From Xenorhabdus poinarii G6 (lineage in GTDB: Bacteria > Pseudomonadota > Gammaproteobacteria > Enterobacterales > Enterobacteriaceae), in the NCBI RefSeq assembly GCF_000968175.1, contig NZ_FO704551.1, forward strand, positions 1,550,001-1,614,000: a DNA stretch of 64,000 bases, given 5' to 3'. The translations under genes were made by a program, and so were the position numbers. The notes under the pieces are model-generated. The model was not told the origin of the DNA and made no database searches. It worked only from the letters and a program-made list of their open reading frames with translations. The stretch's first letter is position 1. The number at the start of each line of letters is the position of its first letter. Shown in pieces: positions 16,263 to 38,803 of this stretch.

Positions 16263-19200
16263 TCACGTATTGATGATTGCTTTACTAATAATAGAAATCG
16301 CTTCAGTCATATTTTCGTGATAATAATCATCAACCACGTTAATCACTAAGGGTTTAACGGCCCATTGTGAAATATTATTATCCGGTATTTTGGCTATCAA
16401 TTGACTCATCGCCACGCCAACCTCGTCTTTAAAATAGGGACTCATTTGGCCGGCTTTAAATAAAGTGATGTTCGTATGTGTTAATTTTCCACTTAAGTGA
16501 CAACTGGCTATGCCAGACTCAAAGGGAATTGCGCCTAATACCGTATTGATATAACTCTCGCTTGCTCCCATATCCTGCAATCGTCTGGTGAGCTGACTAT
16601 ATTCATGTAATAGATCTAATTTATTTCTCAGTTCTATTATTTCATCATTATTAATAATGGTATCCAATAAGAATAACTGAATATTTTTCGCTCCGAGTTG
16701 TTCTAACTGGAAGGCAATCTCCATCGCGATTTGACCACCTAATGACCAGCCTAAGAGACGAATAGGTTTATCAATGGGGGTTTCGGACAGGATTAACGTG
16801 ATATAGATTTGAGTTATCTGGTATAGCGAGTCTATTCGGTTGTTCGTCCGGAAGTTGTAATTATCGATACCAATGCAGTTATACATACCTGCTAAGGCAT
16901 TGGCTAGCGGCTCATAAACTTCGCTACCGCTATTAGCTGCATGTATCATGAACAGCTTTTCTGTTGCCGTTGACTCTGGGGTCAGGAAATTGAGTAAACT
17001 GGATTTAACACTATCTACTTCCAGCCATTGGGATAACAAAGCAATCGATTTGCAGTTAAACAGCACATTTAAAGGAATGTCTATGCCTATTTCACTTTGC
17101 ATTGCGGTGGTCAGTTTAATCGCTGTCAGGGAGTTCCCCCCGATACGGAAGAAATTATCTTCAATACCTACCCGTTCCAATCCCAATACCGCTTGCCAAA
17201 TCGCGCAGAGCTGATTTTCCAGCGCATTGCGGGGCGCGGTATAATGACGCTGATTTTTCCATACCGGCTCAGGCAGGGCACGACGATCGACTTTGCCGTT
17301 CAGCGTCAGGGGAATGGACTCAATTTGGGTAAAGCGGGTGGGCACCATATAGTCCGGCAGGCGGGCAGATAAATGCTCAATCAGTATTTCCTCTGAGACG
17401 AATCCATCGGTCACCAGATAGGCAATCAGCACGTTATTGCCTTGATGCTCACGATTAATCACCACCGCCTGCTTGACCTGTGGGTGAGACGTGAGAGCGC
17501 TTTCGATTTCCCCCAGTTCAATGCGGTAACCGCGGATTTTGACCTGATAGTCGTTGCGGCCCAGATACTCCAGCGTGCCATCCGGTCGCCAGCGTACTAA
17601 ATCACCGGTTTTGTACAGGCGGGTGTAACCTTTGATCGTGTCTGCGGTCGTCGCAAATGGGTTTGCAATAAAACGCTCAGCCGTCAGTGCTGGCCGGTTT
17701 AAATAACCCCGAGCCAACCCGGCTCCGCCGATATACAATTCTCCCGGTGCGCCGATCGGGGACAGGTTGCCATATTTATCAATCACGTAGAGACGAACGT
17801 TACTGATGGCCCGGCCAATATTAGTGGGCATATCACCATCTTGATACTGTCTTTCGGTGGCACCCACGGTCACCTCTGTCGGGCCGTAAGCATTCAGGAC
17901 ATGACAGTGTTGACTGAAATAGGTCAGAACATCTAAGGACGGGGATTCTCCCGCCGTCACCAATACTTGCAGGGAAGAGAATTTTGTGCCAATTAATAAT
18001 TTCAGCAAGGCAGGCGGTAAAGCCGCGATTTCAATGCCTTCACGCTGAATGAGTGTTGCAACTGCCGGGGCATTACGTTCTGCTTCGCTGCAAACGTAAA
18101 GGGTCAGGCCATGCAATAAACTGGAAAATAGTTCGAAAACCGACCCATCAAACACATAAGCGGCAAACATTAAGGCTTTTTTTCGCTTGGCGAGATTAAA
18201 AATATTGGCTTGTGTGGCAACCATATGAGCCACACTATTATGTTCAATCATGACACCTTTAGGCTGGCCGGTAGTGCCAGAGGTATAGATGATATAGGCT
18301 AAATCGGTTGATTGATTGATTTGTGCCGGATTTTCTACTGGCTGGTCTGCGGTCATTATCGGGTCATCCGCCGCTATCAGGATCGGCGGTTTAACAAGTG
18401 ATCGAGCATATTCGGTCAGTGTCGCAACGTGTTGTTGTTGCGTGACCACATAAGCGGCGGCCGTATCTGTCAGAATAAACTGTACGCGCTCTGCGGGATA
18501 GGTTGGTGAAATGGGGACATAGGCTCCACCGGCTTTCAGGACGGCTAACAGACTGATCACCATCTCCAGACGACGATCAAGGTAGAGAGCGATTGGCGTA
18601 TCCACCTGAATGCCGGTCGGTGTCTGTTGCAGACAGCGCTGGCGGATAATCCCGGCTAACTGGTTTGCCCGTTGATTAAGCTGGTGATAGGTCAGTGTTT
18701 CCCCTTCAAAGACCAGCGCGACATGATCCGGGGTCTTTTCCACTTGGGCTTCAAACAGTTGTTGCAGGGTTTTATCCCGTGGGTAGGGAGCATCGGTCTG
18801 ATTCCAGGAATCAAGAAGGGTATGGCGTTCTCCTTCACTGAGCAACTGAATGGAGGAATGCGCTTGATGCGGGTGACAAGCCACGGCGTGCAGGATTCGT
18901 TCAAGCTGAGAAAGCAGACGTTGTGCCTGTTGAGCCGTCAGCCAGTCTTCACCGTAACTCAATTTGATGATGAAACGATCATCTTGTTCATAGGCCAGCA
19001 GTGACAGCGGATAATCTACTTTTTCGATAGCCCGGCGGAATGTCAGTGTATGCTCGATACCGTCTCCGTTTTCATGCACCACGGGAACCGGATAGTTTTC
19101 AAAAACCAGCAGGCTATGGAATAACCGCTCCCCGTCGGATTGCAGGCTGGAGAGTGAAATTGCACTGTGGCTGTTAAGTGCGGCGATATCCTGCTGTATC

Positions 19201-22200
19201 GCCTGCAACGTGCCCAGAATACTGTCGTGTTTGTTCCACTGTACTTGCAACGGCAGCGTATTGATATACAGGCCGACACTGGATTCAATGCCTTCCACCG
19301 GCACATCGCGGCCGGAAACGGTCGTGCCAACGAGGGTTTGCTCATCGCCGGTATAACTGTGCAGTAATTTATGCCAGGCAAATTGCAGTGCCACGTTCAG
19401 CGTGATGCCTTGCGTCCGGCAGGTGTTTTTAAGCTGTTGATAAGTTTCTCCCTGAACAGCGTGTTCCTGTTCGGCGGGATTTTCCACGGTTTTTATCTGG
19501 GTTAAATCAACGTGGGTGCTTAATAGTGGCGAAAGATCATTGGCGCCCTGGAATTGTTTTTTATATGTCGTCCAATAGGCGTCTGATTCAGCCTGGTGAT
19601 CCAGATGATATTGCAGGGTAGCCAGATAAGCCTGTTCTGCGATGATCTGCGGTTGTTGTCCTTGTACCAGCGCATTGTAATACTCATGTACCGCCTGCAA
19701 TAAAATCGGGCCACTCCAGCCGTCTGTAATGCAGTGATGTTGCGTGATCAACACGGTCATCCGTTGTTCATGGTGTTTGATAAGCGTAAAGCGGATTAAC
19801 CCGGGCTGGCTTAAATCAAACGGCACTGTCCGGTCATGCTGTTGGATCGCATTAATCGCATGCTCCTGCTCTTCTGGTGGTAACGAACCAATATCCTTGA
19901 TGGTGAAACTTTCTGCACCAAGACTGGCTTCTTTCGTCACAACTTGCAAAATCGCGTCTTCCCAGTTAAACGCTGTTCTGAGGATAGGGAAACGCTGCGA
20001 AGCCAGTGTCCAGGCTTGCTGATAGGCGGTAAGGTTGAGAGTGGTGTGATAATCCAACAAGAGCTGCGTACGATAGGCATCATCGTGTGGCTGCGCCAAA
20101 TGATGATAAATAAATCCTTGCTGCAAGCTGGTAGCCGGATACAACGCTTCAATGGAATACTTTTGCTGAAGACGACGCAAAAGGTTACCTGAAAGGCCAG
20201 CAATGGCATAATCACTCGGGGTTTTCAGCCCGCCAGCCTGAGCCTGTTGTTGGCCTGCGGTGATAACCGCATTGAGTGCTTGATCAAAGGCGGTGATAAA
20301 CACATGTGTTTGAGTTTGGGGCAAGCACGAATGAATGCTGAACTGCAACTGGCCAGCTTGAATCAAGCCATTAATATTGAGCAATAAATGATGACGGTGA
20401 TCCTCTACCTCATGATCGGCCATGACAGTGCCACAATCGTCGCTGGTCAGAGACCAGACTTGCGGGGTTTCTCCACTTAACTGGCCGAGATAGTTGAAAC
20501 TGATCGCGGGTAAATTTTCGCTTAGATAACCGGCCTGACGCAGCGCACCATAGCCAATACCTTTATTGGGTACAGCACGGAGCATCTCTTTGGTATCAAT
20601 AATCGTCTTAGCAATATCGTCCTGCATGGTCAGCCGAACAGGGTAGACAGTGGTAAACCAGCCAACGGTTTCTGAGACATCCAGTGTGTTGTCGATGTTT
20701 TCCCGTCCGTGGCCTTCGAGTGTGATGTGGTTAATGGCTTGTGAAAAAACCGCCTGTAATGCCAGTGTCAGCGCACTGAGCAATAAATCATTGATTTCCG
20801 TGTGATAACCGCCGTTGGCTTCACGTAGCAGAACGTCAGTCAATGTGGCAGACAGGCTCAGATGATGCTGACGGGGTTCACTTGTAACAGAATGCGCATG
20901 ATATTCTGCCATCACCTGCTGCCAATAGGAGATTTCCTGTTGATGGTGCTCTGCATACTGATAGACCGCATTCACCCACTGGCGATAGCTACTGGTCTTC
21001 GCTGGCAGCCGTTCAGCCTGTAACAATCTGCGCATATCTTCTGCGATAATCCGCCAGGAGACCACGTCAATAATCAGGTGATGAAAGGCGAAAAATAACC
21101 GGGCACTGCCATCATGATAGCCGGTCAGATGGGCAGCCTGCCATAAGGGGCCGGCGCAATAATCAAAGTGATTTTGCCATTGTGTCAGCTGTTGGTGTCG
21201 TGCTGCCTCATCGAGCTTGCTGATATCACAACACCGTAATGCGGGCAGCCAGGCCGGCATTTCTGCGGGATAACACTGACGATAACCCTGTGGTGTGTTG
21301 ATAAAATGCGCACGTAACATATCATGCCGTTCGATGAGTGTGATCAGCGCGTGTTCAATCGCGGAGGCAGGGATGTGGCCGGGGAGTTGCATCATAAAGG
21401 CCTGATTCCAATGGTGTGAATGCGGAAGATCCCAGTTGAAAAAATCCTGCTGGATAGGCAAAAGGGCAAATTCTCCGCTTAATAATCCCTGCTCTGCAAT
21501 CACGGTGACGGAGGATGACGTTTGGGTCAGCAAGTGAGCCAGACGGGCGACGGTCGGCGCGGTAAAAATCGATTGCACCTGGAGAGAAAAACCGGCCATC
21601 CGTAGCCTGGAAACCAATTTGATACTGACAATGGAATCCCCCCCAATACGAAAGAAATTATCGTTAATGCCAACCTGCGGCAGATCCAACACTTCCTGCC
21701 AAATGGTACACAATTGAGTTTCCAGTGCATTGCGGGGTGCAACATAATTGTTCTGCTGTCCCCATACCCGATCGGGCAGCGCCTGACGATCCAGTTTGCC
21801 GTTGAGTGTCAGCGGAATCGATCCCATGAACGTCACGCTGGCAGGCACCATATAGTCCGGCAGGCGGGCAGATAAATACTCAATCAGTGTCTCCTCTGAG
21901 ACGAATCCGTCTGTTACCAGATAAGCGGCCAGTATTTTATGTTCTTGATGCTCACGATCAATCACCACGGCCTGCTTGACCTGTGGATGGGAAGTGAGGG
22001 TATTTTCGATTTCCCCCGGTTCAATGCGGTAACCGCGGATTTTGATTTGAGCGTCGTTACGTCCCAGATATTCCAGCGTGCCATCCGGTCGCCAGCGCAC
22101 TAAATCGCCGGATCGGTACAGGCGGGTGTAACCTTTGATCTTATCGTCGGCGGTGGCAAAGGGATTCGGGACAAAACGTTCAGCCGTCAGTGCCGGCCGG

Positions 22201-24923
22201 TTTAAATACCCCCGTGCCAGCCCGGCACCGCCGATATACAGCTCTCCCGGTGCGCCGATCGGAGACAGATTGCCGTATTCATCAAGCACATAGAGACGGA
22301 CATTATTAATCGCCCGGCCAATATTGGTGGCGATATCGCCAGAGTGATAGCGATTCCCTGTTGCGCACACGGTCACTTCTGTTGGACCGTAAGCATTCAG
22401 GACATCACGGTGTTGGCTGAAATAGTCAAGAAAGTCGAGGGAGGGGGATTCTCCCGCGGTCACCAATAGTTGCAGGGAGGGGAAGTCAGCCCCAATTAAT
22501 AATTTCAGCATGGCAGGAGGTAAGGTTGCTATCTCTATGCCTTCTCGCTGAATAATCTGTTCAACTGCTGGAATATTGCGCTCTGTTTCGCGGCAAATAT
22601 ACAGCGTCAGGCCATGCAATAAGCTGGTAAATAATTCGGAAACCGAAGCATCAAAGACATAAGCGGCAAACATTAAGGCTTTTTTACGTTTGCTCACCTC
22701 AAACAGTTCAGCTTGGGCAGTGATCAGATGAACCGCATTTTTATGCTCGATCATGACGCCTTTGGGTTGCCCCGTGGTCCCCGAGGTATAAATGATATAG
22801 GCCAAATCTGTGGGCTGAGTGATGGGGGGCGGATTTTCCCTCCACGGGTCAGCGGTGGTTGTCAATTCATCTGCCGCTATCAGTATTGGTGCGCTAGCGA
22901 TGGCCTGAGCGTAGTCGGTCAGGACGCGAAGATGCCGTTGTTGGGTCACCACACAAGACGCCGCCGTATCCGACAAAATAAACTGTACCCGTTGCGCAGG
23001 ATATTCCGGTGAAATAGGCACATAGGCGCCACCGGCTTTCAGTACCGCCAGAATACTGATCACCATCTCCAGACTGCGGTCAAAGTAAAGGGCTATCGGC
23101 ATGCCGGCCTGAACGGAGGCATGATGGTGTTGCTGGTAACGTTCGCGGATCACGCCGGCTAACTGATTCGCTTGTGCGTTTAATTGTCGATAGGTCAGTG
23201 CTTCTGTCCCAAAGATCAGCGCCACCTCATCCGGGGTCTTTGTCACTTGGGCTTCAAACAATTGATGCAGGGTTTTATCCTGCGGATAGGGGGCATCGGT
23301 TTGATTCCAGGTATGCAGCAAAGTATGGCGTTCTTTTTCACTGAGAAGCTGAATGGATGAATGTGCTTGGTGTGGGTGACAGGCCACGGCGTGCAGAATT
23401 CGCTCAAGCTGATCAAGTAAGCGCTGTGCCTGTTGAGCTGTCAGCCAGTCCTCACCATAACTCAATTTGATGATTAAACGCTCATCTTGTTCATAGGCCA
23501 GCAGTGACAGCGGATAATCTACTTTTTCGACAGCCTGACGGAATGTCAGAGCCTGCTCGATACCGTCTCCGTTTTCACTTAGCACCGGAGCAGGGTAGTT
23601 TTCAAATACCAGCAGACTGTGGAAGAGTCGTTCCCCATCGGATTGCAGGCTGGCGAGTGAAACGGCGCTGTGGTTGTTCAATGCGACGATGGCGTGTTGT
23701 ATGTTGTGTAGGATTGTCGCGATACTGTCAGCCTTCGCCCATGACACAACCAGAGGCAAGGTGTTGATATATAATCCAACACTGGACTCAATCCCCTCAA
23801 TGGGCACGTCGCGTCCGGAGACGGTCGTGCCGACAATGGTCTGTTCATCGCCGGTGTAACTGTGCAGTAATTTATGCCAGGCAAATTGCAGCGCGACATT
23901 CAGGGTGACATTTTGCGTCTGGCAAGTACGCTTAAGCTGCTGATAAATTTCCCTCTGGACCGAGAGTTGTTGCTCGGCGGGTTTTTCCACGGTTTTTATC
24001 CGGGCTAAGTCAACGTGAGTGCTTAATAGCGCGAAAAGATCATTGGTATTCTGAAACTGTTTTTTACATGCTGCCCAATAGGCGTCTGATTCAGCCTGAT
24101 GATCCAAATGATATTGCAGAGTTGCCAGATAAGCTGGCTCCGCCACAACCGTCGGGACGTGTCCCTTGATGAGTTGGTTGTAATATTCATGGACCGTTTG
24201 CAATAAAATCGGGCCACTCCAGCCGTCAGCAATGCAGTGATGTTGAGTGATCAGCACCGTTATCCATTGTTCATGTTGTTTGATGACCGTAAAACGGATT
24301 AAACCGGGTTGGTGTAAGTCAAACGGCAGGTTTCGGTCATGTTGTTGGAATCCGGCAATGGCGCTGTCCCGCGCTTCTTCGGGTAACTGACTGATATCTT
24401 TAATGGTAAAATTCGCCGAACGAATACTGGCACCTGCGGTGACAATCTGCAAAATGTCGCCTTCCCAGTCAAATGCTGTTCTGAGAATGGGAAAACGCAG
24501 TGAAGCCAGCGCCCAGGCATGTTGATAGGCCGCGAGGTCGATATGGGTATAATAATCTAACAGCAGTTGCACACGATAGGCATCATCCTGTGGTTGGGTC
24601 AGATGATGATAAATAAAACCCTGTTGCAAACTGGTGGCAGGAAATATCACTTCGATATTGCTGTCCTTCTCGCCTTGACTGCCTGAGTTTCCGGGCGCGG
24701 CGATAACATCAGAATGATTTTCACCGAGGGCGAAATGGGCGAAATCTTCTTCGGAGAAGATATTGCTTTCATTTAAAAAAGTTAATAGGTTTTCTCTTTT
24801 TTCTTTCACCCGGTCAATCAGTTGAGTCGGGGGTGTTTCCCCGGCAAAGGCCAGCTTTAACTTATCTTGAGAAGCCCATACGGAGACATGATTTTTCTTG
24901 AGTTCTTTCAATAGCATCAACAT
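16263..24923 (-). CDS. Nonribosomal peptide synthetase, modules 4 and 5 with thioesterase
   Basis: Second, chain-terminating NRPS subunit, 2886 residues. Order: TubC-type N-terminal docking domain (1-55); C (HHCIADG near 229); A (YTSGTTGQPKG near 713); T (GGDS near 1095); E (HHLIIDVVSW near 1281); C (HHCITDG near 1731); A (near 2214); T (GGNS near 2595); thioesterase with GWSLGGQ (near 2726). Both C domains follow modules carrying E domains and have the D-acceptor look (SLQQGFIYHHL). Hand-read pocket residues: module 4 D-A-S-T-V-A-A-V-C-K, a published tyrosine-type code; module 5 D-G-F-A-V-A-A-V-G-K, which I cannot match; the small residues suggest a large aromatic such as Trp. The ATG lies 2 nt after the upstream NRPS stop, so translation is coupled. 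The final TE releases the peptide by hydrolysis or cyclisation; sequence alone does not decide. Confidence 0.95.
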   Translation of the reverse strand: MLMLLKELKKNHVSVWASQDKLKLAFAGETPPTQLIDRVKEKRENLLTFLNESNIFSEEDFAHFALGENHSDVIAAPGNSGSQGEKDSNIEVIFPATSLQQGFIYHHLTQPQDDAYRVQLLLDYYTHIDLAAYQHAWALASLRFPILRTAFDWEGDILQIVTAGASIRSANFTIKDISQLPEEARDSAIAGFQQHDRNLPFDLHQPGLIRFTVIKQHEQWITVLITQHHCIADGWSGPILLQTVHEYYNQLIKGHVPTVVAEPAYLATLQYHLDHQAESDAYWAACKKQFQNTNDLFALLSTHVDLARIKTVEKPAEQQLSVQREIYQQLKRTCQTQNVTLNVALQFAWHKLLHSYTGDEQTIVGTTVSGRDVPIEGIESSVGLYINTLPLVVSWAKADSIATILHNIQHAIVALNNHSAVSLASLQSDGERLFHSLLVFENYPAPVLSENGDGIEQALTFRQAVEKVDYPLSLLAYEQDERLIIKLSYGEDWLTAQQAQRLLDQLERILHAVACHPHQAHSSIQLLSEKERHTLLHTWNQTDAPYPQDKTLHQLFEAQVTKTPDEVALIFGTEALTYRQLNAQANQLAGVIRERYQQHHHASVQAGMPIALYFDRSLEMVISILAVLKAGGAYVPISPEYPAQRVQFILSDTAASCVVTQQRHLRVLTDYAQAIASAPILIAADELTTTADPWRENPPPITQPTDLAYIIYTSGTTGQPKGVMIEHKNAVHLITAQAELFEVSKRKKALMFAAYVFDASVSELFTSLLHGLTLYICRETERNIPAVEQIIQREGIEIATLPPAMLKLLIGADFPSLQLLVTAGESPSLDFLDYFSQHRDVLNAYGPTEVTVCATGNRYHSGDIATNIGRAINNVRLYVLDEYGNLSPIGAPGELYIGGAGLARGYLNRPALTAERFVPNPFATADDKIKGYTRLYRSGDLVRWRPDGTLEYLGRNDAQIKIRGYRIEPGEIENTLTSHPQVKQAVVIDREHQEHKILAAYLVTDGFVSEETLIEYLSARLPDYMVPASVTFMGSIPLTLNGKLDRQALPDRVWGQQNNYVAPRNALETQLCTIWQEVLDLPQVGINDNFFRIGGDSIVSIKLVSRLRMAGFSLQVQSIFTAPTVARLAHLLTQTSSSVTVIAEQGLLSGEFALLPIQQDFFNWDLPHSHHWNQAFMMQLPGHIPASAIEHALITLIERHDMLRAHFINTPQGYRQCYPAEMPAWLPALRCCDISKLDEAARHQQLTQWQNHFDYCAGPLWQAAHLTGYHDGSARLFFAFHHLIIDVVSWRIIAEDMRRLLQAERLPAKTSSYRQWVNAVYQYAEHHQQEISYWQQVMAEYHAHSVTSEPRQHHLSLSATLTDVLLREANGGYHTEINDLLLSALTLALQAVFSQAINHITLEGHGRENIDNTLDVSETVGWFTTVYPVRLTMQDDIAKTIIDTKEMLRAVPNKGIGYGALRQAGYLSENLPAISFNYLGQLSGETPQVWSLTSDDCGTVMADHEVEDHRHHLLLNINGLIQAGQLQFSIHSCLPQTQTHVFITAFDQALNAVITAGQQQAQAGGLKTPSDYAIAGLSGNLLRRLQQKYSIEALYPATSLQQGFIYHHLAQPHDDAYRTQLLLDYHTTLNLTAYQQAWTLASQRFPILRTAFNWEDAILQVVTKEASLGAESFTIKDIGSLPPEEQEHAINAIQQHDRTVPFDLSQPGLIRFTLIKHHEQRMTVLITQHHCITDGWSGPILLQAVHEYYNALVQGQQPQIIAEQAYLATLQYHLDHQAESDAYWTTYKKQFQGANDLSPLLSTHVDLTQIKTVENPAEQEHAVQGETYQQLKNTCRTQGITLNVALQFAWHKLLHSYTGDEQTLVGTTVSGRDVPVEGIESSVGLYINTLPLQVQWNKHDSILGTLQAIQQDIAALNSHSAISLSSLQSDGERLFHSLLVFENYPVPVVHENGDGIEHTLTFRRAIEKVDYPLSLLAYEQDDRFIIKLSYGEDWLTAQQAQRLLSQLERILHAVACHPHQAHSSIQLLSEGERHTLLDSWNQTDAPYPRDKTLQQLFEAQVEKTPDHVALVFEGETLTYHQLNQRANQLAGIIRQRCLQQTPTGIQVDTPIALYLDRRLEMVISLLAVLKAGGAYVPISPTYPAERVQFILTDTAAAYVVTQQQHVATLTEYARSLVKPPILIAADDPIMTADQPVENPAQINQSTDLAYIIYTSGTTGQPKGVMIEHNSVAHMVATQANIFNLAKRKKALMFAAYVFDGSVFELFSSLLHGLTLYVCSEAERNAPAVATLIQREGIEIAALPPALLKLLIGTKFSSLQVLVTAGESPSLDVLTYFSQHCHVLNAYGPTEVTVGATERQYQDGDMPTNIGRAISNVRLYVIDKYGNLSPIGAPGELYIGGAGLARGYLNRPALTAERFIANPFATTADTIKGYTRLYKTGDLVRWRPDGTLEYLGRNDYQVKIRGYRIELGEIESALTSHPQVKQAVVINREHQGNNVLIAYLVTDGFVSEEILIEHLSARLPDYMVPTRFTQIESIPLTLNGKVDRRALPEPVWKNQRHYTAPRNALENQLCAIWQAVLGLERVGIEDNFFRIGGNSLTAIKLTTAMQSEIGIDIPLNVLFNCKSIALLSQWLEVDSVKSSLLNFLTPESTATEKLFMIHAANSGSEVYEPLANALAGMYNCIGIDNYNFRTNNRIDSLYQITQIYITLILSETPIDKPIRLLGWSLGGQIAMEIAFQLEQLGAKNIQLFLLDTIINNDEIIELRNKLDLLHEYSQLTRRLQDMGASESYINTVLGAIPFESGIASCHLSGKLTHTNITLFKAGQMSPYFKDEVGVAMSQLIAKIPDNNISQWAVKPLVINVVDDYYHENMTEAISIISKAIINT

Positions 24924-24925
24924 AT

Positions 24926-27900: not shown

Positions 27901-30900
27901 CAAGGTAAAGGGCTATCGGGGTATCAGCCAGCATGGAAAGCGGACTTTGTTGCTGGCAGCGGTCGCGGATAATATTGGCTAACTGGTTCGCCCGTTGGTT
28001 AAGCTGGCGATAGGTCAGCGTTGCCCCTTCGTATACCAGCGCAATGTTATCCGGGGTTTTGTCCACTTGGGCTTCAAACAGTTGTTGCAGGGTTTTATCC
28101 TGTGGATAAGAGGCATCGGTCTGATTCCAGGTGTGCAACAGGGTATGACGTTCTTGTGCCGACAGGGTATCCAGCCCGGCCAGCGGTTGTTTTTGATCCG
28201 CCACGAATGCGGTCAATACCTGTTGATAGTGATCTTCCAGTCGCAGGATGGTGGTTTCGTCAAACAAACTGATGGCGTAATTCAAACAGCCAGTAATGTG
28301 GGTTTGTTCATCCGACAATAACAGACTCAGATCAAATTTAGCGGGAGTATAGAGCGACTCATTCAGTGCAACCGGCCGAAATGGCAGATAGCCTTGCTCT
28401 CGTCGGCGCTCACCAAAACGTTGTAAGCTGAATGTGACCTGAAAAATGGGGTGGCGAGAGGTATCGCGTTCAATTTCCAGCGCGTCAACTAACTGTTCAA
28501 ACGGCATGTCCTGATGGGATTTGGCGTCGGCGATTAATTGATGAGTTTGTTTAATCAGGCTCTCAACGCTGTCTGTTTGTTCAAGTTGCGCCCGCAAGAC
28601 CAGTGAATTAACAAACATACCAATCAGTGATTGAGTTTGAGCATGGTGGCGGTTGTCGGTAGGCGTACCCAGAATGATATCGTGTTGTCCTGATAATTTT
28701 GCCAACGTGACATAAAAGCCACTGAGCAGCACGGTGAACAGGGTGGTTTCCTGTGTTTTTGCCAGCGCCCTTAATTGGCCTGATAGTGCGGTGTCCAGCG
28801 TAAAATTGAAATCCCGTCCCTGATAACTCACCTGTGCAGGTCTGGAATAATCGGTGGGTAAAGCCAGTGGTTCGTAGTTGGCTAAGGTTTGTCGCCAGTA
28901 GGCAAGCTGGCGTTCACGCACCTCACCTTGTAAATATGCCCGCTGCCACGCGGCGTAGTCGCCATAAGTAATCTCTAAAGGCGGCAGTTGGCTGTCACGG
29001 CCTTCTGACAGGGAATGATAAATTTCGGCCAGCTCGTCCATAAAAATATCAATGGACCAGCCATCCATGGCGATATGGTGCCACAAGATGAATAAGTAAT
29101 GTTGATCAGCAATCTGGTAGTGGTGCAGGCGCAACCCCGGTTCAGTGGCCAGATTAAACGGCGTGGCAATCTCCGCACGAATGGCGTGCATCAACGCATC
29201 AGCATCGTCATGGGATAAGGTGCTTGATTCGATGACCAGATCCCTGTTCAGCAACTGTTGATAGCGTTGTCCGTCCCCATCATCAGGGTACAGCATTTTC
29301 ATCACCGGGTGACGTTCAACCAATCGGTTAATGGCCGTTTCTAACCAGGGCAGGCAAGCACCGTTATCCAGTTGCAGCAGATAAGGGATATGATAAACAT
29401 CAGAACCTTGTTCAAATTGCTCGATAAATAACATTCGTTCCTGAGCAAACGAGAGAGGATAGCGATCCCGATCGTGGTGAGGGATATTTGTACCGGTTTG
29501 TGGTTCCAGATGGCGTACCAGGGCGGCAATCGTTCTCAGTTTAAACAATTGCGTTAAAGAAACCTCGATGGCTAAGTCCCGGCGGATCGCGGCCGTCAAT
29601 TTAATCGCTGTCACGGAGTCCCCCCCGATGCGGAAGAAATTATCTTCAATGCCAACCTGTTCCAGTCCTAATACCGCCTGCCAAATCGCGCATAGTTGGG
29701 TTTCCAGCGTATTGCGGGGCGCGACATAACGACGCTGATTTCCCCATACCGGCTCCGGCAGGGCGCGGCGATCGACTTTGCCATTCAGGGTCAGGGGGAC
29801 GGACGCAATGCGGGTAAAACTGGCGGGTATCATATAGTCCGGCAAACGGGCAGATAAATGCGCAATCAGGGTGTCATCGGACAGGGTATCTGCTGTCACC
29901 AGATAAGCGACCAGCCGGTTATTTCCTTGATGCAGATGATTAATCACCACGGCTTGTTTCACCTGTGGATGAGAAATAAGGACTTTTTCGATTTCCCCCG
30001 GTTCAATGCGGTAACCACGGATTTTAACCTGAAAGTCGTTGCGTCCGAGATACTCCAGTTCACCGTTCGGTAACCAGCGAACCAAGTCACCGGTTTTATA
30101 CAAGCGGGTGTAACCTTTCGCCTGATCTTCTGTCGTCGCAAAAGGGTTTGGAACAAAACGCTCGGCGGTCAGATCAGGTCGGTTTAAATACCCCCGCGCC
30201 AGTCCGGCACCGCCAATATACAGCTCTCCCGGCACACCGACCGGCGACAAGTTACCGTCACCGTCAAGCACATAAAGACGGGCATTATGAATCGCCCGGC
30301 CGATATTCGTGGCAATATCGCCATGTTGATAGCGTTTCTCGGTAGCACACACCGTGACTTCAGTCGGGCCATAAGAATTCAGGACTTCGCTGTGACGGCT
30401 GAAATAGTCAATAAAATCAGCGGAGGGGGCTTCTCCCGCTGTGACTAATAATTGCAGAGAGGGGAGCGCGGTACCCATTAAGAGCTTCAGTATGGCAGGC
30501 GGTAAAGCGGCGATTTCAATGCCTTCGCGCTGAATCAGTTTGGCAATTGCTGGTGCGTTGCGTTCTGCTTCACTGCAAATGTACAGCGTCAGACCATGCA
30601 ATAAACTGGAAAATAATTCGAAAACCGATCCATCAAAAACATAAGGGGCAAACATTAACGCTTTTTTTCGCCTGGCGGCATGAAAAATGTTTGCTTGCGC
30701 GCTTACCATATGTGCCACATTTTGATGCTCAATCATCACCCCTTTGGGCTGGCCGGTGGTGCCAGAGGTATAGATGATATAGGCCAGATCAGTCGGTTGA
30801 TTTATCGGTGGCGGATTTTCTCCGGGCTGATTAGGGGGGATGATGGGATCATCTGCTGCGATCAGGGTCGGAGCACCTGCAAGTGCCTGGATCGTGGTCA

Positions 30901-33900
30901 TCAATGTCGGGAAGTGTCGTTGCTGAGTCACAATACAAGCGGTGGCGGTATCTGCCAGAATAAACTGTATGCGCTCTGCGGGATAGGCTGGTGAAATAGG
31001 TACATACGCCCCACCCGTTTTCAATACGGCCAGGATACTGATCACCATGTCCAGACTGCGATCAAGGTAGAGGGCGATGGGAGTGCCCGCTTGCATCGCA
31101 GCCGTGCTATTTTGCTGATAATATTCGCGGATTACCCCCGCGAGTTGATTCGCCCGCGCGTTTAACTGTCGGTAGGTCAGCGTTTCGTCCTCAAACACCA
31201 CCGCCACATTCTCTGGCGTCTTTTCCACTTGGGCTTCAAACAGTTGTTGCAGTGTTTTATCCTGTGGATAGGGAGCATCGGTCTGATTCCAGGTATGTAA
31301 TAGCGTATGGCGCTCTTCGTCACTGAGTAAGCGGATGGCGGTATGCGGTTGCTGTGGATGGTAAGCGACGGTATGCAGAATGCGCTCAAGCTGAGAAAGC
31401 AAACGCTGTGCCTGTTGAGCCGTCAGCCAGTCTTCACCATAACCTAATTTCATGGTGAAACTATTATCCTGTTCATACCCCATCAGCGACAGCGGATAAT
31501 CCAATTTTTCAACGACCTGACGAAGCGTCAGAGCGTGTTCTATGCTTTCTTTGTTTTGACTGATTGCGGGAACGGGGTAATTCTCAAAACCAAGCAGGCT
31601 ATGGAATAAACGTTCTCCGTCGGATTGCAGGCTGGCGAGTGAAACCGCACTGTGGCTGTTGAGAGCCGCGATATCCTTCTGGATGTCTTGTAAAATGGCA
31701 AGAATACTGTTTGCCGTGTTCCACTGTACGGTTAACGGCAGCGTGTTGATATACAGGCCGACACTGGATTCAATGCCTTCTACGGGGACATCGCGGCCGG
31801 ATACCGTGGTGCCGACAATGGTCTGCTCATCGCCGGTGTAGTTATGCAGCAATTTATGCCAGGCGAATTGCAGTGCCACATTCAGGGTAATGCCTTGTGT
31901 CTGGCAGGTATGTTTGAGTTGCTGATAAACCTCCGCCGGTAACGTCAGCCGCTGCCCAGCGGGTTTTTCAATGGTTTTTATCTGTGTTAAATCAATAGGG
32001 TGGCTTAGCAAAGTGGACAGATCGTTTGTGCCCTGAAAGCCTTTTTTGCGTTCGGCCCAATAAGCCTCTGATTCAGCCTGATGATCCAAATGGTATTGCT
32101 GTGTGGCCAGATACGCTTGTTCCACCACAATCTGTGGTTCGCTTCCCTTGATCAGTTGGTCGTAATATTCATGCACCGTCTGCAATAAAATTGGGCCACT
32201 CCAGCCGTCAGCAATGCAGTGATGTTGGGTGATCAAGACTGTCAGCTGTTGTTCATGTTGTTTGAAGACCGTCAAGCGGATTAAACCGGGCTGGTTTAAA
32301 TCAAATGGCTGGTTTCGGTCATTTTGCAGGTATTCGGCAATCGCGTTGTTCCGCTCTGCTTCGCCGAGTTGACGGATATCGTGGATCGTAACATTTTCCG
32401 GCCCAATACAGCTGTCAGCGGTGATAACCTGTAAAACATCGCCTTCCCAGTCAAATGCCGTTCTGAGGATAGGGAAACGCTGTGACGCCAGCTTCCAGGC
32501 GCACTGATAGGCCGCAAGATCGACATGGGTGTGATAATCCAACAGGAGCTGCCCACGGTAGGCATTATCCTGTGGCTGCGTTAGATGATGATAAATAAAT
32601 CCCTGTTGCAAGCTGGTAGCCGGATACAGATTTTCCACCTGATAGCGCTGCTGAAAACGGTGTAAACGTTCCATGGAAATGGCTTTAAACGCATAATCAC
32701 TTGGGGTTTTTATCCCGCCTGATTGCGCTTGTTGCTGACCGATAGCGATGACCCTGGTGAGTGCTTGTTCAAAAGCAGTAATAAATGTTTGTGTCTGTGT
32801 GGATGATAAACGGGAATGAACGCGGAATTGCAGCTGTTCTGACAGTACTTCCCCGTTGATATTCAGCAGAAAGTGACGATGATGCTCATCGGTGATCACC
32901 GTACCATCGGGCAGTGAGCCATCCAGCGAAAAGGGGAATTCAGCCTGATCACTCAGTGGTTCGAGATTACGTTGTTCGAGATTGAGGGGATCAACATAGT
33001 TAAACCTGATGGGGGGTAAATTGCCCGTCAGGTATCCGGCCTGATGTAACGCGCCATAACCGATCCCCTGATGGGGTACAGCACGCAGCATTTCTTTGGT
33101 GTGAATAATGGTTTCCGCAATATCGTTCTGCATGGTCAGACAAACCGGGTAGATAGTCGTAAACTGACCCACGGTTTCGGCGATATCCAGTGTATTGTCG
33201 ATGGCTTCCCGCCCGTGCCCCTCAAGGGTAACGGTGTTGACAGCTCGGCAGAAGGTTGTCTGCAACGCCAGAGTGAGCGCACTGAGCAGTAATTCGTTAA
33301 TGTTGGTGTGATAACCTAAATGGGCTTCCCGCCGTAAAATGTCGGTCAACTCAGCAGATAAGTGCAGTGAATGCACCGTCATTTCTTCTACTGCCGGATC
33401 AGTTCCCTGTTCAGTGATGATCTTCTGCCAGTAGGGAACTTCGTCTTGATGCTGTCGCGCATAGCGATGGACGGCCGCGACCCACTGCCGGTAACTACTG
33501 GTTTTTGCCGGTAAGGTTTCACCCCGCAACAACTTACGCATATCGTTGGCAATAATGCGCTGAGAGGTGGCATCAATAATCAGGTGATGAAAGGCGAAAA
33601 ATAACCGGGGACGGCCATCAGCGTATCCGGTCAGTTGAGTAACTTGCCATAGCGGGCCGTGCCGGTAATCACCCTCCCTTTGCCATAAGGTCAGCCGCGC
33701 ATGTTGTTCGGCTTTATCTATCTTGCGGATATCACAATGCCGTAATGTGGGGAATCCGGCGGGCATTTCTGCGGAATAGCATTGACGATAACCCTGTTCG
33801 GTGTCGGTAAAATGGGCACGTAACATATCATGTCGTTCACTCAGTGTTATCAATGCCCGCGTAATATCCGTGTGTTGGATATTATCCGGAAGCCGCATGA

Positions 33901-36900
33901 TCAATGTCTGATCCCGAGGGTGAGAATGTGGTCGATTCCCATTGAAGAAAGCCTGTTGGACAGGCAATAAACCAAATTCTCCGCTTAATAACCCTTGCTC
34001 TGCAACACCGGCTACCGCAGATGAATTTTGAGACAGTAACTGCGCCAGCTGCGCCACCGTCGGCGCCTCAAAAATCGATTTGACTTGAAGGGAAAAACCG
34101 TTCTGCCGGAGTCTGGAAACCAGACGGATGCTGATAATCGAATCTCCCCCCATCCGGAAAAAATTATCCTCAATCCCAATCTGTTCGATTCCCAGAATAT
34201 CCTGCCAGAGTGTACATAGCCGGATTTCTAATTCAGTGCGAGGGGCAATATAACGATTCTGGTCTTCCCACACCGGTGCTGGTAAAGCATGGCTGTCGAG
34301 CTTGCCATTGACGGTCAGGGGAATGGCCTCAATACGGGTAAAGCTGGCCGGTATCATATATTCCGGCAGGTGGGCAGAGAGATGTTCTATCAACATATCA
34401 TTGGGCAGAGTTTCATCCGTCACCAGATAAGCCGCCAGGGCTTTATGACCGGCTTGCTCCCGATCAATGACCACCGCGTGTTTCACCTGAGGATGGGCAG
34501 ACAGCGCCGTTTCAATTTCCCCTAATTCAATACGGTAACCGCGGATTTTGACCTGAAAATCATTGCGGCCGAGGTATTCCAGATTACCGTCCGGTAACCA
34601 GCGTACCTGATCACCGGTTTTATACAGACGAGTGTAGCCCTGGATCTGATCTTCGTCGGTGACAAACGGGTTTTCCACAAAACGTTCGGCAGTGAGCGCC
34701 GGTCGACCCCAATATCCTCGTGCCAGCCCCGCGCCGCCGATATACAACTCTCCGGGAGCACCGATAGGGGACAACCTGCCATCACGGTTAAGGACATACA
34801 TCCGGGTATTATGGTGTGGTTTACCAATGGGAATATTGCCATTGAGTTCATCCGTGACTTCGAAATGCGTGACATCATTCGTGGTTTCTGTCGGGCCATA
34901 AAGATTAATGAGTCTACTTGCATGGCTGTTGATGGCTCTGAACGCATTGACATGGGACATTGTTAACGCTTCGCCGCCACACAGCACATAACGGATAGTC
35001 GCCGGTAACTGCTGGCCTACATCCCGTATGGTTTGGCAAAACGCCCCTAACATGGACGGGACAAACTGCACCACCGTCACGCCGGTTTTTTGGATCAATT
35101 GATACAACTCTTCTGGCTGTTTATGCATATCCGGTGATGCCATCACAATCGTGGCACCAACCCCATTAGCGGCGAGCAGCTCCCAGACTGAGGCATCAAA
35201 GGTATAAGGAATTTGTTGCAGCACGTTATCCGATGCATGTAATGGGTATTGGGATTGCATCCAACACAGGTGATTCATAACGTTTTGATGGGTCAACGCA
35301 ACCCCTTTGGGTTGTCCGGTCGTCCCGGAGGTGTAGATAATGTAGGCCAGATCGGTACTTTGATTGATCGGCAGTAGATTCTCCACCGGCTGGTCTTGGG
35401 TGATTGCGTCGTCATCGGTGGCTATCAGCACAGGCGGAACAGCGAAGGTGCGAATACTTTTTTTCAGTGTGATCAGGTGGTTTTGTTGCGTCAGCACACA
35501 TGGGCTTCCGGTATCTTCCAGAATAAACTGAACCCGCTCCGGGGGATATTCAGGCGAGATAGGGACATAGGCACCGCCGGCTTTAAGGACGGCTAAGAGA
35601 CTGACGACCATTTCCAGACTACGATCAAGGTAAAGCGCGATAGGGGTATCTGCCCGCATGGGGGTATTGCGTTGTTGCTGGTAGCACTGGCGTATCACAC
35701 TTGCGAGCTGGTTTGCTTGTTCGTTAAGCTGGCGGTAGGTCAGTGTGTTATCTTCGAATATCAGGGCGACATTATCTGGAGTCGCTGCTGCCTGGCGTTC
35801 AATCTGTTGCTGTAAGAGGTCATGTTGCGGGTAGGGGACGTCGGTCTGATTCCAGTGATGCAGTGTGTGACGCTCTTCTTCTAATAAGATCGGTAATTCA
35901 CTGACGGACAGAGAAGGCGTATTAAGCAAAGCAGTCAATAAGTGCTGCAATCGCTTAAGTATTTTTTTTATATCTTGCTCGCTAAAATAGGCCTGCAAAT
36001 AATCTATCGTTATTGTCAGCTCTTGATAATAGCCAAAATCTTGCAATCGAAAAACAATCGGGTCTGTATTAAATTTTCCATCAACAATATGATGCTGTGC
36101 CTGATCGATTTCAGCCGCTGATGCTGAAAGCCTTTCATAGAAGATAAAGATATTGGGTAAAGCAATGCCATGATGATTGGCCAGGCGCGTCAAGTGAGAA
36201 TGAGGAAATTGGCTATGGGAATAGCTCTTTTTGAGGGCTAATTCCATTTTCTTAATCTGTTCTATCACGCTGACGGAATCTAAAATGTGGCAATGTATGG
36301 GATAGATATTGGATTGCATCCCGATCACATATTTCTCTGATCGGGTTTTTCTGCCATGCGTAATGGTATTAAAGGTTAATGCTTGTTGTCCGGTCAGCGC
36401 TGACATCATGATGATGACAAGACTTGAAAAGACAGTGAGAATATTGGTTTTATTTTCTTTGCAAAAATCAGTCAATTCTTTTTTCATTGAAAAGGGCAAT
36501 GTCAACGTATCATGACCCGAACCGTTATTTTGATAATAAGGGGTTAGTTGATGTATATCTTTTTGGGTTAAAAAATCATACCAGTAATTTTTGTCTTTTT
36601 CATAACCGGCGGAACTCAGATATTCTTTTGCTTTTTCTATGCTATCTAAATATTGCGGAATTTCTGTTAACCAGTCGGTTGATGCGTCATTTTTCAGGCA
36701 TGAATATAACTGATGGACATATTCATGGAATCGGAATAAACCAACACCATCCATGATAATATGATGGAATTTAGTGAAAAAATAATATTTTTCGCGGGTA
36801 ACACGAATCAATGAAGCTTGATATAAAATCGGATTGGGAAGATTTATCGGTTGAGCTATCTGTTGTTGCATCCAGATATTTGCTTTTTTCTCAGGATCAG

Positions 36901-37198
36901 GCTGCTCGGTAAAGTCATGCAATATGATGGGTTCAGGGGCATGTTGTTGCTGAATAGATTGAACAGCTTCATTATCCGAATTTATGGATATGCATAACCT
37001 TAGCATATCAACGTGTTGATACAGTAATTGCCATGTTTGTTGCAAAATGGCCATATCAACCTTACCTTCCATCAGGGTATACCAGCCCAGGTTGTGTATC
37101 GGCGTATTTTCATGGAGGGTTTGCTCGTAAAATACATCTTCTTGAGCAGGGTGAAGGTCATACAAGTTCGAATTCAACGAACCCTCAGATTTTTTCAT
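24926..37198 (-). CDS. Nonribosomal peptide synthetase, modules 1 to 3
   Basis: First NRPS subunit, 4090 residues. Order: C (HHIIMDG near 145), A (near 619), T (GGDS near 1019), E (near 1203), C (near 1659), A (near 2139), T (near 2523), C (WHHIAMDGWS near 2706), A (near 3196), T (near 3578), E (HHLIIDAVSW near 3769), then a tail ending EKKTILDV. The first C domain has no upstream module and differs from the others, as expected for a starter C domain that N-acylates residue 1. The module 3 C domain is the L-acceptor type, agreeing with the absence of E in module 2. Hand-read pockets: module 1 D-A-W-Q-L-G-L-N-D-K (closest I recall is a Gln-type code); module 2 D-G-F-A-V-A-S-V-C-K (aromatic, unassigned); module 3 D-A-S-T-V-A-A-V-C-K (Tyr-type). 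The E domain of module 1 has altered core motifs (see findings). No MbtH-like gene, PPTase or intact exporter lies nearby. Confidence 0.95.
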   Translation of the reverse strand: MKKSEGSLNSNLYDLHPAQEDVFYEQTLHENTPIHNLGWYTLMEGKVDMAILQQTWQLLYQHVDMLRLCISINSDNEAVQSIQQQHAPEPIILHDFTEQPDPEKKANIWMQQQIAQPINLPNPILYQASLIRVTREKYYFFTKFHHIIMDGVGLFRFHEYVHQLYSCLKNDASTDWLTEIPQYLDSIEKAKEYLSSAGYEKDKNYWYDFLTQKDIHQLTPYYQNNGSGHDTLTLPFSMKKELTDFCKENKTNILTVFSSLVIIMMSALTGQQALTFNTITHGRKTRSEKYVIGMQSNIYPIHCHILDSVSVIEQIKKMELALKKSYSHSQFPHSHLTRLANHHGIALPNIFIFYERLSASAAEIDQAQHHIVDGKFNTDPIVFRLQDFGYYQELTITIDYLQAYFSEQDIKKILKRLQHLLTALLNTPSLSVSELPILLEEERHTLHHWNQTDVPYPQHDLLQQQIERQAAATPDNVALIFEDNTLTYRQLNEQANQLASVIRQCYQQQRNTPMRADTPIALYLDRSLEMVVSLLAVLKAGGAYVPISPEYPPERVQFILEDTGSPCVLTQQNHLITLKKSIRTFAVPPVLIATDDDAITQDQPVENLLPINQSTDLAYIIYTSGTTGQPKGVALTHQNVMNHLCWMQSQYPLHASDNVLQQIPYTFDASVWELLAANGVGATIVMASPDMHKQPEELYQLIQKTGVTVVQFVPSMLGAFCQTIRDVGQQLPATIRYVLCGGEALTMSHVNAFRAINSHASRLINLYGPTETTNDVTHFEVTDELNGNIPIGKPHHNTRMYVLNRDGRLSPIGAPGELYIGGAGLARGYWGRPALTAERFVENPFVTDEDQIQGYTRLYKTGDQVRWLPDGNLEYLGRNDFQVKIRGYRIELGEIETALSAHPQVKHAVVIDREQAGHKALAAYLVTDETLPNDMLIEHLSAHLPEYMIPASFTRIEAIPLTVNGKLDSHALPAPVWEDQNRYIAPRTELEIRLCTLWQDILGIEQIGIEDNFFRMGGDSIISIRLVSRLRQNGFSLQVKSIFEAPTVAQLAQLLSQNSSAVAGVAEQGLLSGEFGLLPVQQAFFNGNRPHSHPRDQTLIMRLPDNIQHTDITRALITLSERHDMLRAHFTDTEQGYRQCYSAEMPAGFPTLRHCDIRKIDKAEQHARLTLWQREGDYRHGPLWQVTQLTGYADGRPRLFFAFHHLIIDATSQRIIANDMRKLLRGETLPAKTSSYRQWVAAVHRYARQHQDEVPYWQKIITEQGTDPAVEEMTVHSLHLSAELTDILRREAHLGYHTNINELLLSALTLALQTTFCRAVNTVTLEGHGREAIDNTLDIAETVGQFTTIYPVCLTMQNDIAETIIHTKEMLRAVPHQGIGYGALHQAGYLTGNLPPIRFNYVDPLNLEQRNLEPLSDQAEFPFSLDGSLPDGTVITDEHHRHFLLNINGEVLSEQLQFRVHSRLSSTQTQTFITAFEQALTRVIAIGQQQAQSGGIKTPSDYAFKAISMERLHRFQQRYQVENLYPATSLQQGFIYHHLTQPQDNAYRGQLLLDYHTHVDLAAYQCAWKLASQRFPILRTAFDWEGDVLQVITADSCIGPENVTIHDIRQLGEAERNNAIAEYLQNDRNQPFDLNQPGLIRLTVFKQHEQQLTVLITQHHCIADGWSGPILLQTVHEYYDQLIKGSEPQIVVEQAYLATQQYHLDHQAESEAYWAERKKGFQGTNDLSTLLSHPIDLTQIKTIEKPAGQRLTLPAEVYQQLKHTCQTQGITLNVALQFAWHKLLHNYTGDEQTIVGTTVSGRDVPVEGIESSVGLYINTLPLTVQWNTANSILAILQDIQKDIAALNSHSAVSLASLQSDGERLFHSLLGFENYPVPAISQNKESIEHALTLRQVVEKLDYPLSLMGYEQDNSFTMKLGYGEDWLTAQQAQRLLSQLERILHTVAYHPQQPHTAIRLLSDEERHTLLHTWNQTDAPYPQDKTLQQLFEAQVEKTPENVAVVFEDETLTYRQLNARANQLAGVIREYYQQNSTAAMQAGTPIALYLDRSLDMVISILAVLKTGGAYVPISPAYPAERIQFILADTATACIVTQQRHFPTLMTTIQALAGAPTLIAADDPIIPPNQPGENPPPINQPTDLAYIIYTSGTTGQPKGVMIEHQNVAHMVSAQANIFHAARRKKALMFAPYVFDGSVFELFSSLLHGLTLYICSEAERNAPAIAKLIQREGIEIAALPPAILKLLMGTALPSLQLLVTAGEAPSADFIDYFSRHSEVLNSYGPTEVTVCATEKRYQHGDIATNIGRAIHNARLYVLDGDGNLSPVGVPGELYIGGAGLARGYLNRPDLTAERFVPNPFATTEDQAKGYTRLYKTGDLVRWLPNGELEYLGRNDFQVKIRGYRIEPGEIEKVLISHPQVKQAVVINHLHQGNNRLVAYLVTADTLSDDTLIAHLSARLPDYMIPASFTRIASVPLTLNGKVDRRALPEPVWGNQRRYVAPRNTLETQLCAIWQAVLGLEQVGIEDNFFRIGGDSVTAIKLTAAIRRDLAIEVSLTQLFKLRTIAALVRHLEPQTGTNIPHHDRDRYPLSFAQERMLFIEQFEQGSDVYHIPYLLQLDNGACLPWLETAINRLVERHPVMKMLYPDDGDGQRYQQLLNRDLVIESSTLSHDDADALMHAIRAEIATPFNLATEPGLRLHHYQIADQHYLFILWHHIAMDGWSIDIFMDELAEIYHSLSEGRDSQLPPLEITYGDYAAWQRAYLQGEVRERQLAYWRQTLANYEPLALPTDYSRPAQVSYQGRDFNFTLDTALSGQLRALAKTQETTLFTVLLSGFYVTLAKLSGQHDIILGTPTDNRHHAQTQSLIGMFVNSLVLRAQLEQTDSVESLIKQTHQLIADAKSHQDMPFEQLVDALEIERDTSRHPIFQVTFSLQRFGERRREQGYLPFRPVALNESLYTPAKFDLSLLLSDEQTHITGCLNYAISLFDETTILRLEDHYQQVLTAFVADQKQPLAGLDTLSAQERHTLLHTWNQTDASYPQDKTLQQLFEAQVDKTPDNIALVYEGATLTYRQLNQRANQLANIIRDRCQQQSPLSMLADTPIALYLDRSLDMVIGILAVLKAGGAYVPVSPEYPAQRVQFILSDTATPCVVTQQRHLSVLTDYAQSLASTPILIATDALTTTAAPWEENPPSVNHPTDLAYIIYTSGTTGQPKGVMIEHKNAIHLITAQAELFEVTKRQKALMFAAYVFDASVSELFTSLLHGLTLYICSEAERNALAIETLIQQAGIEIATLPPALLKLLIGAELPSLQLLVTAGESPSLEVLDYFSQHSDVLNAYGPTEVTVCATGKRYQHGDLATNIGRAINNVRLYVLDEYGNLSPVGAPGELYIGGAGLARGYLNRPELTAERFVPNPFATAEDKANGYTRLYKTGDLVRWRLDGTLEYLGRNDFQIKIRGYRIEPGEIESVLTTHPQVKHAVVIGREHKGNRVLAAYLVAEGSISEETLIEHLSSRLPDYMVPASMTFIEAIPLTLNGKVDHRALPVPEWNKRNHYVAPRNALETQLCAIWQAVLGLEQVGIDDNFFRIGGDSIVSIQLVSRLRQAGFSLQIKSIFEAPTVARLAQLLTQMASSVTMIAEQGLLHGEFALLPVQQHFFNWDLSHPHHWNQALMMQIPGHIRHADITQALITLSERHDMLRTHFVWTENGYRQCYSTEMPSGIPVLQHGDVRAFSKTALHQQLTQWQSGFDYCHGPLWQAGHLTGYRDGSARLFFAFHHLIIDAVSWRIIAEDMRLLLQNKTLPAKTSSYRQWVNAVHHYAQQHQNEVTYWQKVMAGYQAPAASGETSQHSLSISAELTDTLLHEANTGYHTEINDLLLSALTLALQAVFSQSIHHITLEGHGRENIDNTLDISETVGWFTTLYPVRLAMQADIAETIIHTKEMLRAIPNKGIGYGALHQAGYLSDDLPTISFNYLGQLAGTQHQDWSLTSDEAGTVIASENGNHLLLAINGAVQRGRLQFQVDSRLSQSQTTVFITAFEQALHRVITAGYKQAQAGGLKTASDYGINGVSMDQLNQLTQRFGHVNNENSHLHSEKKTILDV

Positions 37199-38228: not shown

Positions 38229-38654
38229 TCATTCCGTAAATTGCCGGTAAGCACAATGGGCGCCCCGTGTGGGTGGCACCTTATGATGAATGGGATGACC
38301 ACCCAGGCGAATTTCGCCTTTATCCAGTTGATAGAAAGAGAGTAATAAATACGCCAGCGTCGATTTACCACTGCCGCTAGAGCCAACAATGGCAGTCATA
38401 CTGCCTTGGGGCGCATAAAATGAGACGTTTTGGATTGCCGGCTGGTGGGTGCCTGGATAGCTAAATGAGATGTTATTAACATGAATATCATGTTTAACCG
38501 GCGCGGTTAGTGAACCGGAAACTTGCGTTGCAATTTCTTCAATTTCTGCAATATGTTTTTCGCCCACCTGTGTCAGTACCGTCACATTGAGCAGAGGAAT
38601 GATCCCGCTCAGGAGGGTAATGGTGGCAAACAGGAGCAGAATTGTGATGAGCAT
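38229..38654 (-). pseudogene. Fragment of a siderophore-type ABC exporter (YbtP/YbtQ-like)
   Basis: 141 codons covering the last membrane helix and the start of the nucleotide-binding domain of a fused ABC exporter. A linker (HIAEIEEIA), an A-loop-type stretch (ISFSYPGTHQPAIQNVSF) and Walker A GSSGSGKST (about residue 92) are present. Reading then breaks off shortly after the Walker A helix (LDKGEIRLGGHPI), so the Q-loop, signature, Walker B and the whole membrane domain are missing. It is a gene remnant. The link to the YbtP/YbtQ group is inferred from the sequence style and the divergent AraC gene. Confidence 0.7.
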
Positions 38655-38803
38655 TTTATTTTCATAGAGAGCCGTTATACCCTTTCAAATGATGTTTTAC
38701 GAAAATTCAGTGTGGTAAAACACAAAACAGATTGGGGAGACTAGTGGGAATCGAAAATGAGGGCTAGCGTGATAGGGACAAAAGTCGCGCGATACGTACT
38801 ATT

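Follow-up and report, generated by a model that had tools for sequence, protein, structure and literature searches.

An eroded first epimerisation domain before a D-type condensation domain in a five-module peptide synthetase line of Xenorhabdus poinarii

Background

Is the first residue of a peptide still flipped to the D configuration when the epimerisation (E) domain responsible for it has lost many otherwise invariant residues, and the condensation (C) domain behind it still looks by sequence as if it takes a D donor? The question is raised by a non-ribosomal peptide synthetase (NRPS) line of Xenorhabdus poinarii G6, a bacterium whose habitat is insect-killing worms. The line lies in a stretch of 64,000 nucleotides, hereafter the window, which is part of the complete G6 genome of 3,659,523 bases.

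Genome mining usually counts an E domain as working once it has been called, a routine assumption to which the case in the window is a corrective. What makes a C domain demand a D donor is, to our knowledge, not settled; in the excerpts consulted, Rausch et al. 2007 could not identify the responsible residues from the old glycopeptide cases (PMC1894796). An eroded E domain standing before a C domain of ordinary sequence in one lineage, with intact sister species, makes the question of this D gate addressable with closely related proteins: if the first E domain (E1) is dead and the second C domain (C2) accepts L, the chirality-setting residues would be directly mappable by comparing close C2 domains.

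Architecture of the synthetase line

The line consists of two genes on the reverse strand, as are all of its features below (coordinates are window positions). The first (24926..37198) encodes 4090 amino acids in the order C1-A1-T1-E1-C2-A2-T2-C3-A3-T3-E3, and the second (16263..24923) encodes 2886 amino acids in the order dock-C4-A4-T4-E4-C5-A5-T5-TE; the gap between the two frames is 2 bases, and both are open with no internal stops. Pfam matches comprise five Condensation-family stretches, three adenylation (A) and three T domains in the first protein, and three Condensation-family stretches, two A domains, two T domains and one thioesterase (TE) in the second, while motif placement resolves them as C-A-T-E, C-A-T, C-A-T-E followed by dock-C-A-T-E, C-A-T-TE. 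Repeating C, A and T modules with their core motifs are thus present, as in modular type I NRPSs. The T domains are T1 (34040..34231, FFRMGGDS), T2 (29504..29701), T3 (26354..26536), T4 (21534..21716) and T5 (17022..17213). The release domain, TE (16266..16958), matches Thioesterase PF00975 with an E-value of 2e-17 and carries the motif GWSLGG. Chance is no concern for the five-module architecture at the scores obtained, and open reading frames, Pfam and motifs agree with the two adjacent genes, five modules and domain order of an initial annotation of this DNA.

Condensation subtypes and docking

The subtypes of the C domains were assigned in two ways: from a tree built on 20 proteins, whose 60 C domains include the five of the window, and from 73 diagnostic columns that, with the window left aside, reach 95% class separation between C domains in D context (21) and in L context (24). 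C2 (31352..32644), C4 (23370..24662) and C5 (18813..20147) fall in a 24-member clade made up solely of C domains that follow an E domain or a docking joint (support 0.71), and C3 (28136..29470) falls in a 25-member clade all of whose members lie downstream of a T domain (support 0.999). The diagnostic columns give the same picture: the counts of D-type and L-type residues are 72 and 0 in C2, 71 and 0 in C4, 72 and 0 in C5, and 1 and 69 in C3, the remainder being neither. C subtype and E domain therefore agree at each joint, as had been claimed. A switch of C2 to the L type was sought, and nothing of it is visible in the tree or in the columns (72 of 73 are D); nine changes are private to C2 and form no readable pattern. 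The clade that holds C1 (35879..37186) has 11 members, all N-terminal C domains (support 1.0), and lies apart from the L-donor and D-donor clades, which bears out the starter-type look of C1; the tree references include no starter C of proven function, and starter-like here refers to the clade.

At the joint between the subunits, residues 1-52 of the second protein (24768..24923) match the TubC_N docking family with an E-value of 1e-4 and 22.8 bits, under the Pfam cut-off of 26, and the first protein ends in EKKTILDV (24929..24952), a candidate docking motif on comparison of tails. The KTILDV tail ends 12 of the 13 first subunits compared, the window's included, and together with the sub-threshold match it upholds the docking joint proposed before C4. 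The motif is identical in those 12 subunits, which span lines beginning with a Gln-like and with a Thr-like residue, and because it is common to both line types the docking pairs look interchangeable.

Adenylation pockets and the predicted peptide

Pocket residues were taken by motif position, each of the five A domains has the A10 Lys, and all of the assignments are predictions from the codes. A3 (26597..28093) and A4 (21777..23273) share the identical pocket DASTVAAVC(K), which is Tyr-like and differs from the Phe code of GrsA mainly in Ser at 239. The change W239S in PheA leads to a roughly threefold preference for Tyr over Phe (PMC11355689, excerpt). The pocket of A1 (34244..35821), DAWQLGLND(K), agrees at 8 of 10 positions (A10 Lys counted) with the Gln codes DAWQFGLIDK and DAWQTGLIDK (tabulated in PMC2866473, excerpt) and has an unusual Asn at position 330; it is thus Gln-like and not aromatic, a correction to the initial annotation. 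A2 (29714..31291) reads DGFAVASVC(K) and is Trp-like, and A5 (17265..18755) reads DGFAVAAVG(K), which is Trp-like but altered, since only 7 of 10 positions agree with the Trp code DGWAVASVCK (PMC9113097, excerpt). The aromatic call consequently holds for modules 2-5, with Tyr-type pockets in a row in modules 3 and 4, and the chain predicted from the five codes is acyl-Gln-Trp-Tyr-Tyr-Trp. In the open-access main texts searched, the four pocket codes looked up have no exact occurrence, and close codes occur in two papers.

The second pocket varies among relatives. It is of Tyr type in six of the nine other loci read and of other types in X. khoisanae and X. mauleonii, and the Trp-like code of the window recurs in the genome G010 and in X. 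griffiniae (protein P0009), so that a Trp-like module 2 is not private to strain G6. Around its A3-A4 core motifs, the window's A2 is locally nearer to its own A5 (84-87% identity) than to orthologous A2 domains (75-83%), in three 150-base windows starting at nucleotides 480-600 of the A2 alignment. This is a weak sign of a local specificity swap within the line, from A5 to A2; a replacement of the whole of A2 by A5 was rejected, as A5 is closer in those three windows only.

Relatives and chromosomal site

Searching named genomes with C1 returned 25 loci, of which 23 are in Xenorhabdus or Photorhabdus, and C1 is present at at least 72% identity in 12 of the 30 genus genomes searched, X. poinarii included. 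Identity to orthologues is 78% across the first 1000 residues of subunit 1 and 75-76% across subunit 2 in its entirety. Four of the 11 loci read share one arrangement, with five modules in the same order in two genes and a TE: the window, X. yunnanensis (P0007+P0124), X. vietnamensis (P0008+P0125) and X. anantnagensis (L048+L050). These three orthologues resemble the window in domain order, in a Gln-like A1, in pockets of Tyr type in modules 3 and 4 and of Trp type in module 5 and in the chromosomal site, and X. yunnanensis and X. vietnamensis also in the KTILDV tail; they differ from it in a Tyr-coded module 2, an intact E1 and an A5 reading DGFAVASVC. Other relatives depart further: the second gene is longer in X. 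griffiniae, BG5 and G008 (frames of 3908-3909 residues, three modules in BG5), X. mauleonii has a three-module form, X. khoisanae has a different pocket set and ends at a contig edge, G010 has a shortened line in two frames, and the X. thuongxuanensis locus reaches the contig end. In G008 (loci L042 and L043), a frame change inside A2 splits the first subunit, and the second subunit has 3908 residues.

The site is marked downstream by ttcA (15134..16027, reverse strand, from a scan of neighbouring genes). The line stands directly before ttcA-zntB-tpx in X. yunnanensis, X. vietnamensis, X. anantnagensis and G010, that is, in four of the five relatives in which the downstream side is available; the downstream side of X. 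mauleonii has no match to ttcA-zntB-tpx. A relic of the line in Xenorhabdus sp. IM139775 is flanked by the same ttcA-side neighbours: before ttcA, positions 10001-14524 of this locus (L002) hold a C1-A1 relic and pieces of E, C and TE in different frames. Upstream, a small lipoprotein gene lies beside the start of the line in eight of eight relatives with that side available (which in X. khoisanae and X. mauleonii comprises under 700 bases). Given the shared site and neighbours, the line seems to have been in the genus for a long time and not to have arrived recently. Near its start in X. vietnamensis, X. griffiniae, BG5, X. thuongxuanensis, G008 and G010 there is also an open reading frame of 110-131 residues that looks by eye like a small multidrug-resistance-type transporter; none of the open reading frames at the corresponding place in the window is of this kind.

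No description of a product of the line or its orthologues was found in the literature searched, which lay outside subscription papers, MIBiG and BiG-FAM and included excerpts of PMC11566119, PMC11547657, PMC9177418 and PMC12383660. G6 is reported to carry 10 NRPS/PKS loci with 21 modules, and the excerpts consulted of that report assign no product to the locus in the window (PMC4079199). Nor did the searches turn up a synthetase of known product that matches closely over the full length. The earlier remark that the line could not be matched to a familiar Xenorhabdus or Photorhabdus peptide stands as far as a described product goes; the synthetase itself is not isolated, having orthologues at 75-78% identity.

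Among neighbouring types, the lipocitide and bovienimide synthetase of Xenorhabdus (lpcS) makes N-acylated NRPS lipopeptides, as predicted for the window, but its product is a tripeptide (D-Leu/L-Ala/D-Cit), whereas the window's line has five modules (PMC9177418, excerpt). A further type comprises lines of Xenorhabdus and Photorhabdus with a Thr-like first pocket (DFW..GMVH; L006-L016, L019, L021), whose starter C domains are 58-65% identical to the window's; those examined have the same kind of tail and docking domain, and the second subunit of one, from P. luminescens, is 73% identical to the window's over its full length. These lines have a Thr-like first residue and a module 1 without E, whereas the window combines a Gln-like A1 with E1 and so lies outside the group. 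The Thr hydroxyl of such lines would be usable for ring closure.

Erosion of the first epimerisation domain

The comparison set for E1 (32735..34039) comprised 38 E domains, of which 17, including E3 and E4 of the window, come from six loci and 21 from 20 proteins hand-picked out of 216. E1 differs at 22 of the 145 columns that are invariant in these 38; the next worst domains differ at 4, and E3 (25049..26353) and E4 (20229..21533) at none (0 of 123 invariant columns changed in each). Among the residues altered are two Trp that have become Gln, one in HHxxxDxxSW (a motif reading HHLIID[AV]VSW in E1 of 10 other loci) and one in VGWFT, as well as the Asn of WNQ and the Gly of FNYLG, both now Asp. 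The ancestral residues at these four positions also occur in the aligned domains of tyrocidine synthase and PvdL, and the positions are 98-100% conserved in a distant set of 112 E domains, hand-sorted as outside Xenorhabdus and Photorhabdus from 154 pattern matches. At the 64 columns at least 90% conserved in the distant set, E1 departs at seven and E3 and E4 at none; the 112 domains themselves have a median of 1 departure and a maximum of 9, and 10 of them have at least 5. E1 has kept the HHxxxD and EGHGRE motifs, and with HH, EGHGRE and FNY it retains the residues usually regarded as catalytic in E domains, so that it may still be active; what it has lost are other conserved residues, in WNQ, SW, VGWFT and FNYLG.

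E1 is 63-66% identical to its counterparts in X. yunnanensis, X. vietnamensis, X. griffiniae and X. mauleonii, against 73-83% for the 13 other domains in comparison with X. yunnanensis and X. vietnamensis. In small sets of 4-6 sequences the window heads the list of departures for other domains too (C1 29 of 286, C3 29 of 296, A1 31 of 401, TE 47 of 220), because it is the most diverged member; in larger sets the most departures are found in C2 (9 of 206) and A4 (11 of 237). The matched control for E1 is therefore given by the sister E domains, with 0 departures, and by a test of rates. Compensating frameshifts were rejected as a source of the changes, as four alternative frames of two altered stretches all contain stops. 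Structure models of E1 and E3, with mean pLDDT of 39 and 42, were both too poor to use.

The rate test covered 13 domains, TE being left out because one reference locus lacks it (its plain dN is an ordinary 0.13-0.14), and represented X. poinarii by the single strain G6. With X. yunnanensis and X. griffiniae as partners, the branch dN of E1 is 0.170 (bootstrap 0.143-0.201) against 0.068-0.102 in the 12 other domains, an amino-acid-changing rate 1.7 times that of the next fastest domain and about twice the mean of the 12, these rates being rough since dS is near 1 and hence near-saturated. Other partners (three choices of comparison species, and G008) gave 0.170-0.176 for E1 against at most 0.105. 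The excess is confined to the X. poinarii lineage, as E1 is not the fastest domain in three other lineages tested. The omega of E1 is 0.28, against 0.09-0.19 in the 12 other domains; as this is far below 1, a loss of E1 would be recent or partial, or would never have happened.

Discussion

We consider it probable, though by no means certain, that the line is a five-module NRPS for an N-acylated Gln-Trp-Tyr-Tyr-Trp in which E1 has lost otherwise invariant residues, leaving residue 1 likely wholly or partly L before a C2 of D-donor sequence. From the architecture, the C subtypes, the orthologues with their shared site and the lineage-specific excess in E1, all read directly, we infer the following mode of working. 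C1 would transfer an acyl group to the aminoacyl-T of module 1; in the ancestor, E1 would have converted residue 1 to the D form used by C2, a step that is likely impaired in the X. poinarii lineage; residues 3 and 4 would be epimerised by E3 and E4; the subunits would meet via the KTILDV tail and the TubC-like domain; and TE would release a linear or cyclic product. The configuration D-L-D-D-L, proposed earlier on the proviso that all E domains work, is consistent with the unchanged invariant columns of E3 and E4 and is put in doubt at residue 1 by the changed ones of E1, which likely works poorly or not at all. With E1 eroded and C2 of D-donor type, residue 1 is likely L or partly D and faces a D-type gate, and three outcomes may follow: an L residue is accepted at the gate, the remaining activity of E1 is enough, or the line comes to a halt.

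The last of these, in which the failure of E1 stalls C2, no product is made and a dying line in a reduced genome has other domains that have not yet decayed, seems quite unlikely to us. It would sit well with the reduced G6 genome (21 NRPS/PKS modules, against 56-79 in three others; PMC4079199, excerpt), with the relic in L002, the frame-changed first subunit in G008 and the shortened line in G010, and with the missing sign of a switch in C2, but domains freed simultaneously should share the excess, and only E1 of the 13 tested is raised. Since the other 12 are without excess, selection probably still maintains the line, which is probably useful with E1 less so. A maintained line probably fits best with a C2 that tolerates an L donor or with residual E1 activity that suffices. 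An E1 that works fully, with odd residues that are neutral or have co-evolved with T1 and C2, in a line making D-L-D-D-L, is rather unlikely: the retained HH, EGHGRE and FNY, the open frame, an omega well under 1 and a C2 that remains D-donor type all speak for it, whereas 22 otherwise invariant residues altered in one domain of one lineage, next to unaltered sisters, and changes at seven columns conserved far beyond the genus speak against it.

The first module could also be read differently. In xenocoumacin and colibactin synthesis, a D-specific peptidase clips off an N-acyl-D-residue, and a prodrug-type line of this kind would share the starter C-A-T-E layout. It is very improbable here, and was set aside: the Gln-like pocket of A1 departs from the Asp/Asn type (DLTKVGHVGK), and a D-specific peptidase gene was not seen among the neighbouring genes scanned, a subset of the window's genes. 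In the genome PF00144 occurs in two places, a frame of 410 residues and a gene of the beta-lactamase family (PF13354) that neighbours an RNB exonuclease gene. Returning to an impaired E1, the stronger version, in which E1 is dead, C2 is starting to take an L donor and X. poinarii makes L-L-D-D-L where its sister species make D-L-D-D-L, can be advanced only tentatively.

By analogy, the glycopeptide synthetases offer a parallel for a suspect E domain paired with a D-type C domain, of which the E1 case would be a further variant. In the synthetases for A47934 (sta) and complestatin (com), E domains considered inactive stand before C domains of DCL ancestry that act as LCL, and Rausch et al. 2007 found glycopeptide C domains of this kind, with upstream E domains considered inactive or missing, unchanged at the subtype positions tested (PMC1894796, excerpt). 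Because they are unchanged there, the unchanged-looking C2 of the window, D-donor by phylogeny, is compatible with a switch. The glycopeptide products are known and the change is old, whereas E1 is eroded in one lineage only.

Additional features of the window

Beyond the line, positions 38229-38684 (reverse strand) hold a fragment of an ABC exporter, with the end of the membrane part and the Walker A region, adjoining an AraC-type regulator gene at 39133-39942 (forward strand); by eye, a Fur-box-like palindrome lies between the two, and the region 38229-39942 looks like a decayed iron-regulated locus. In an A+T-rich stretch, positions 49889-51133 and 51296-51703 (reverse strand) encode a 414-amino-acid protein with a delta-endotoxin N-terminal match (E-value 3e-5) beside a reading frame of 135 amino acids, a pair that would be compatible with the PirAB pair listed for G6 (PMC4079199, excerpt).
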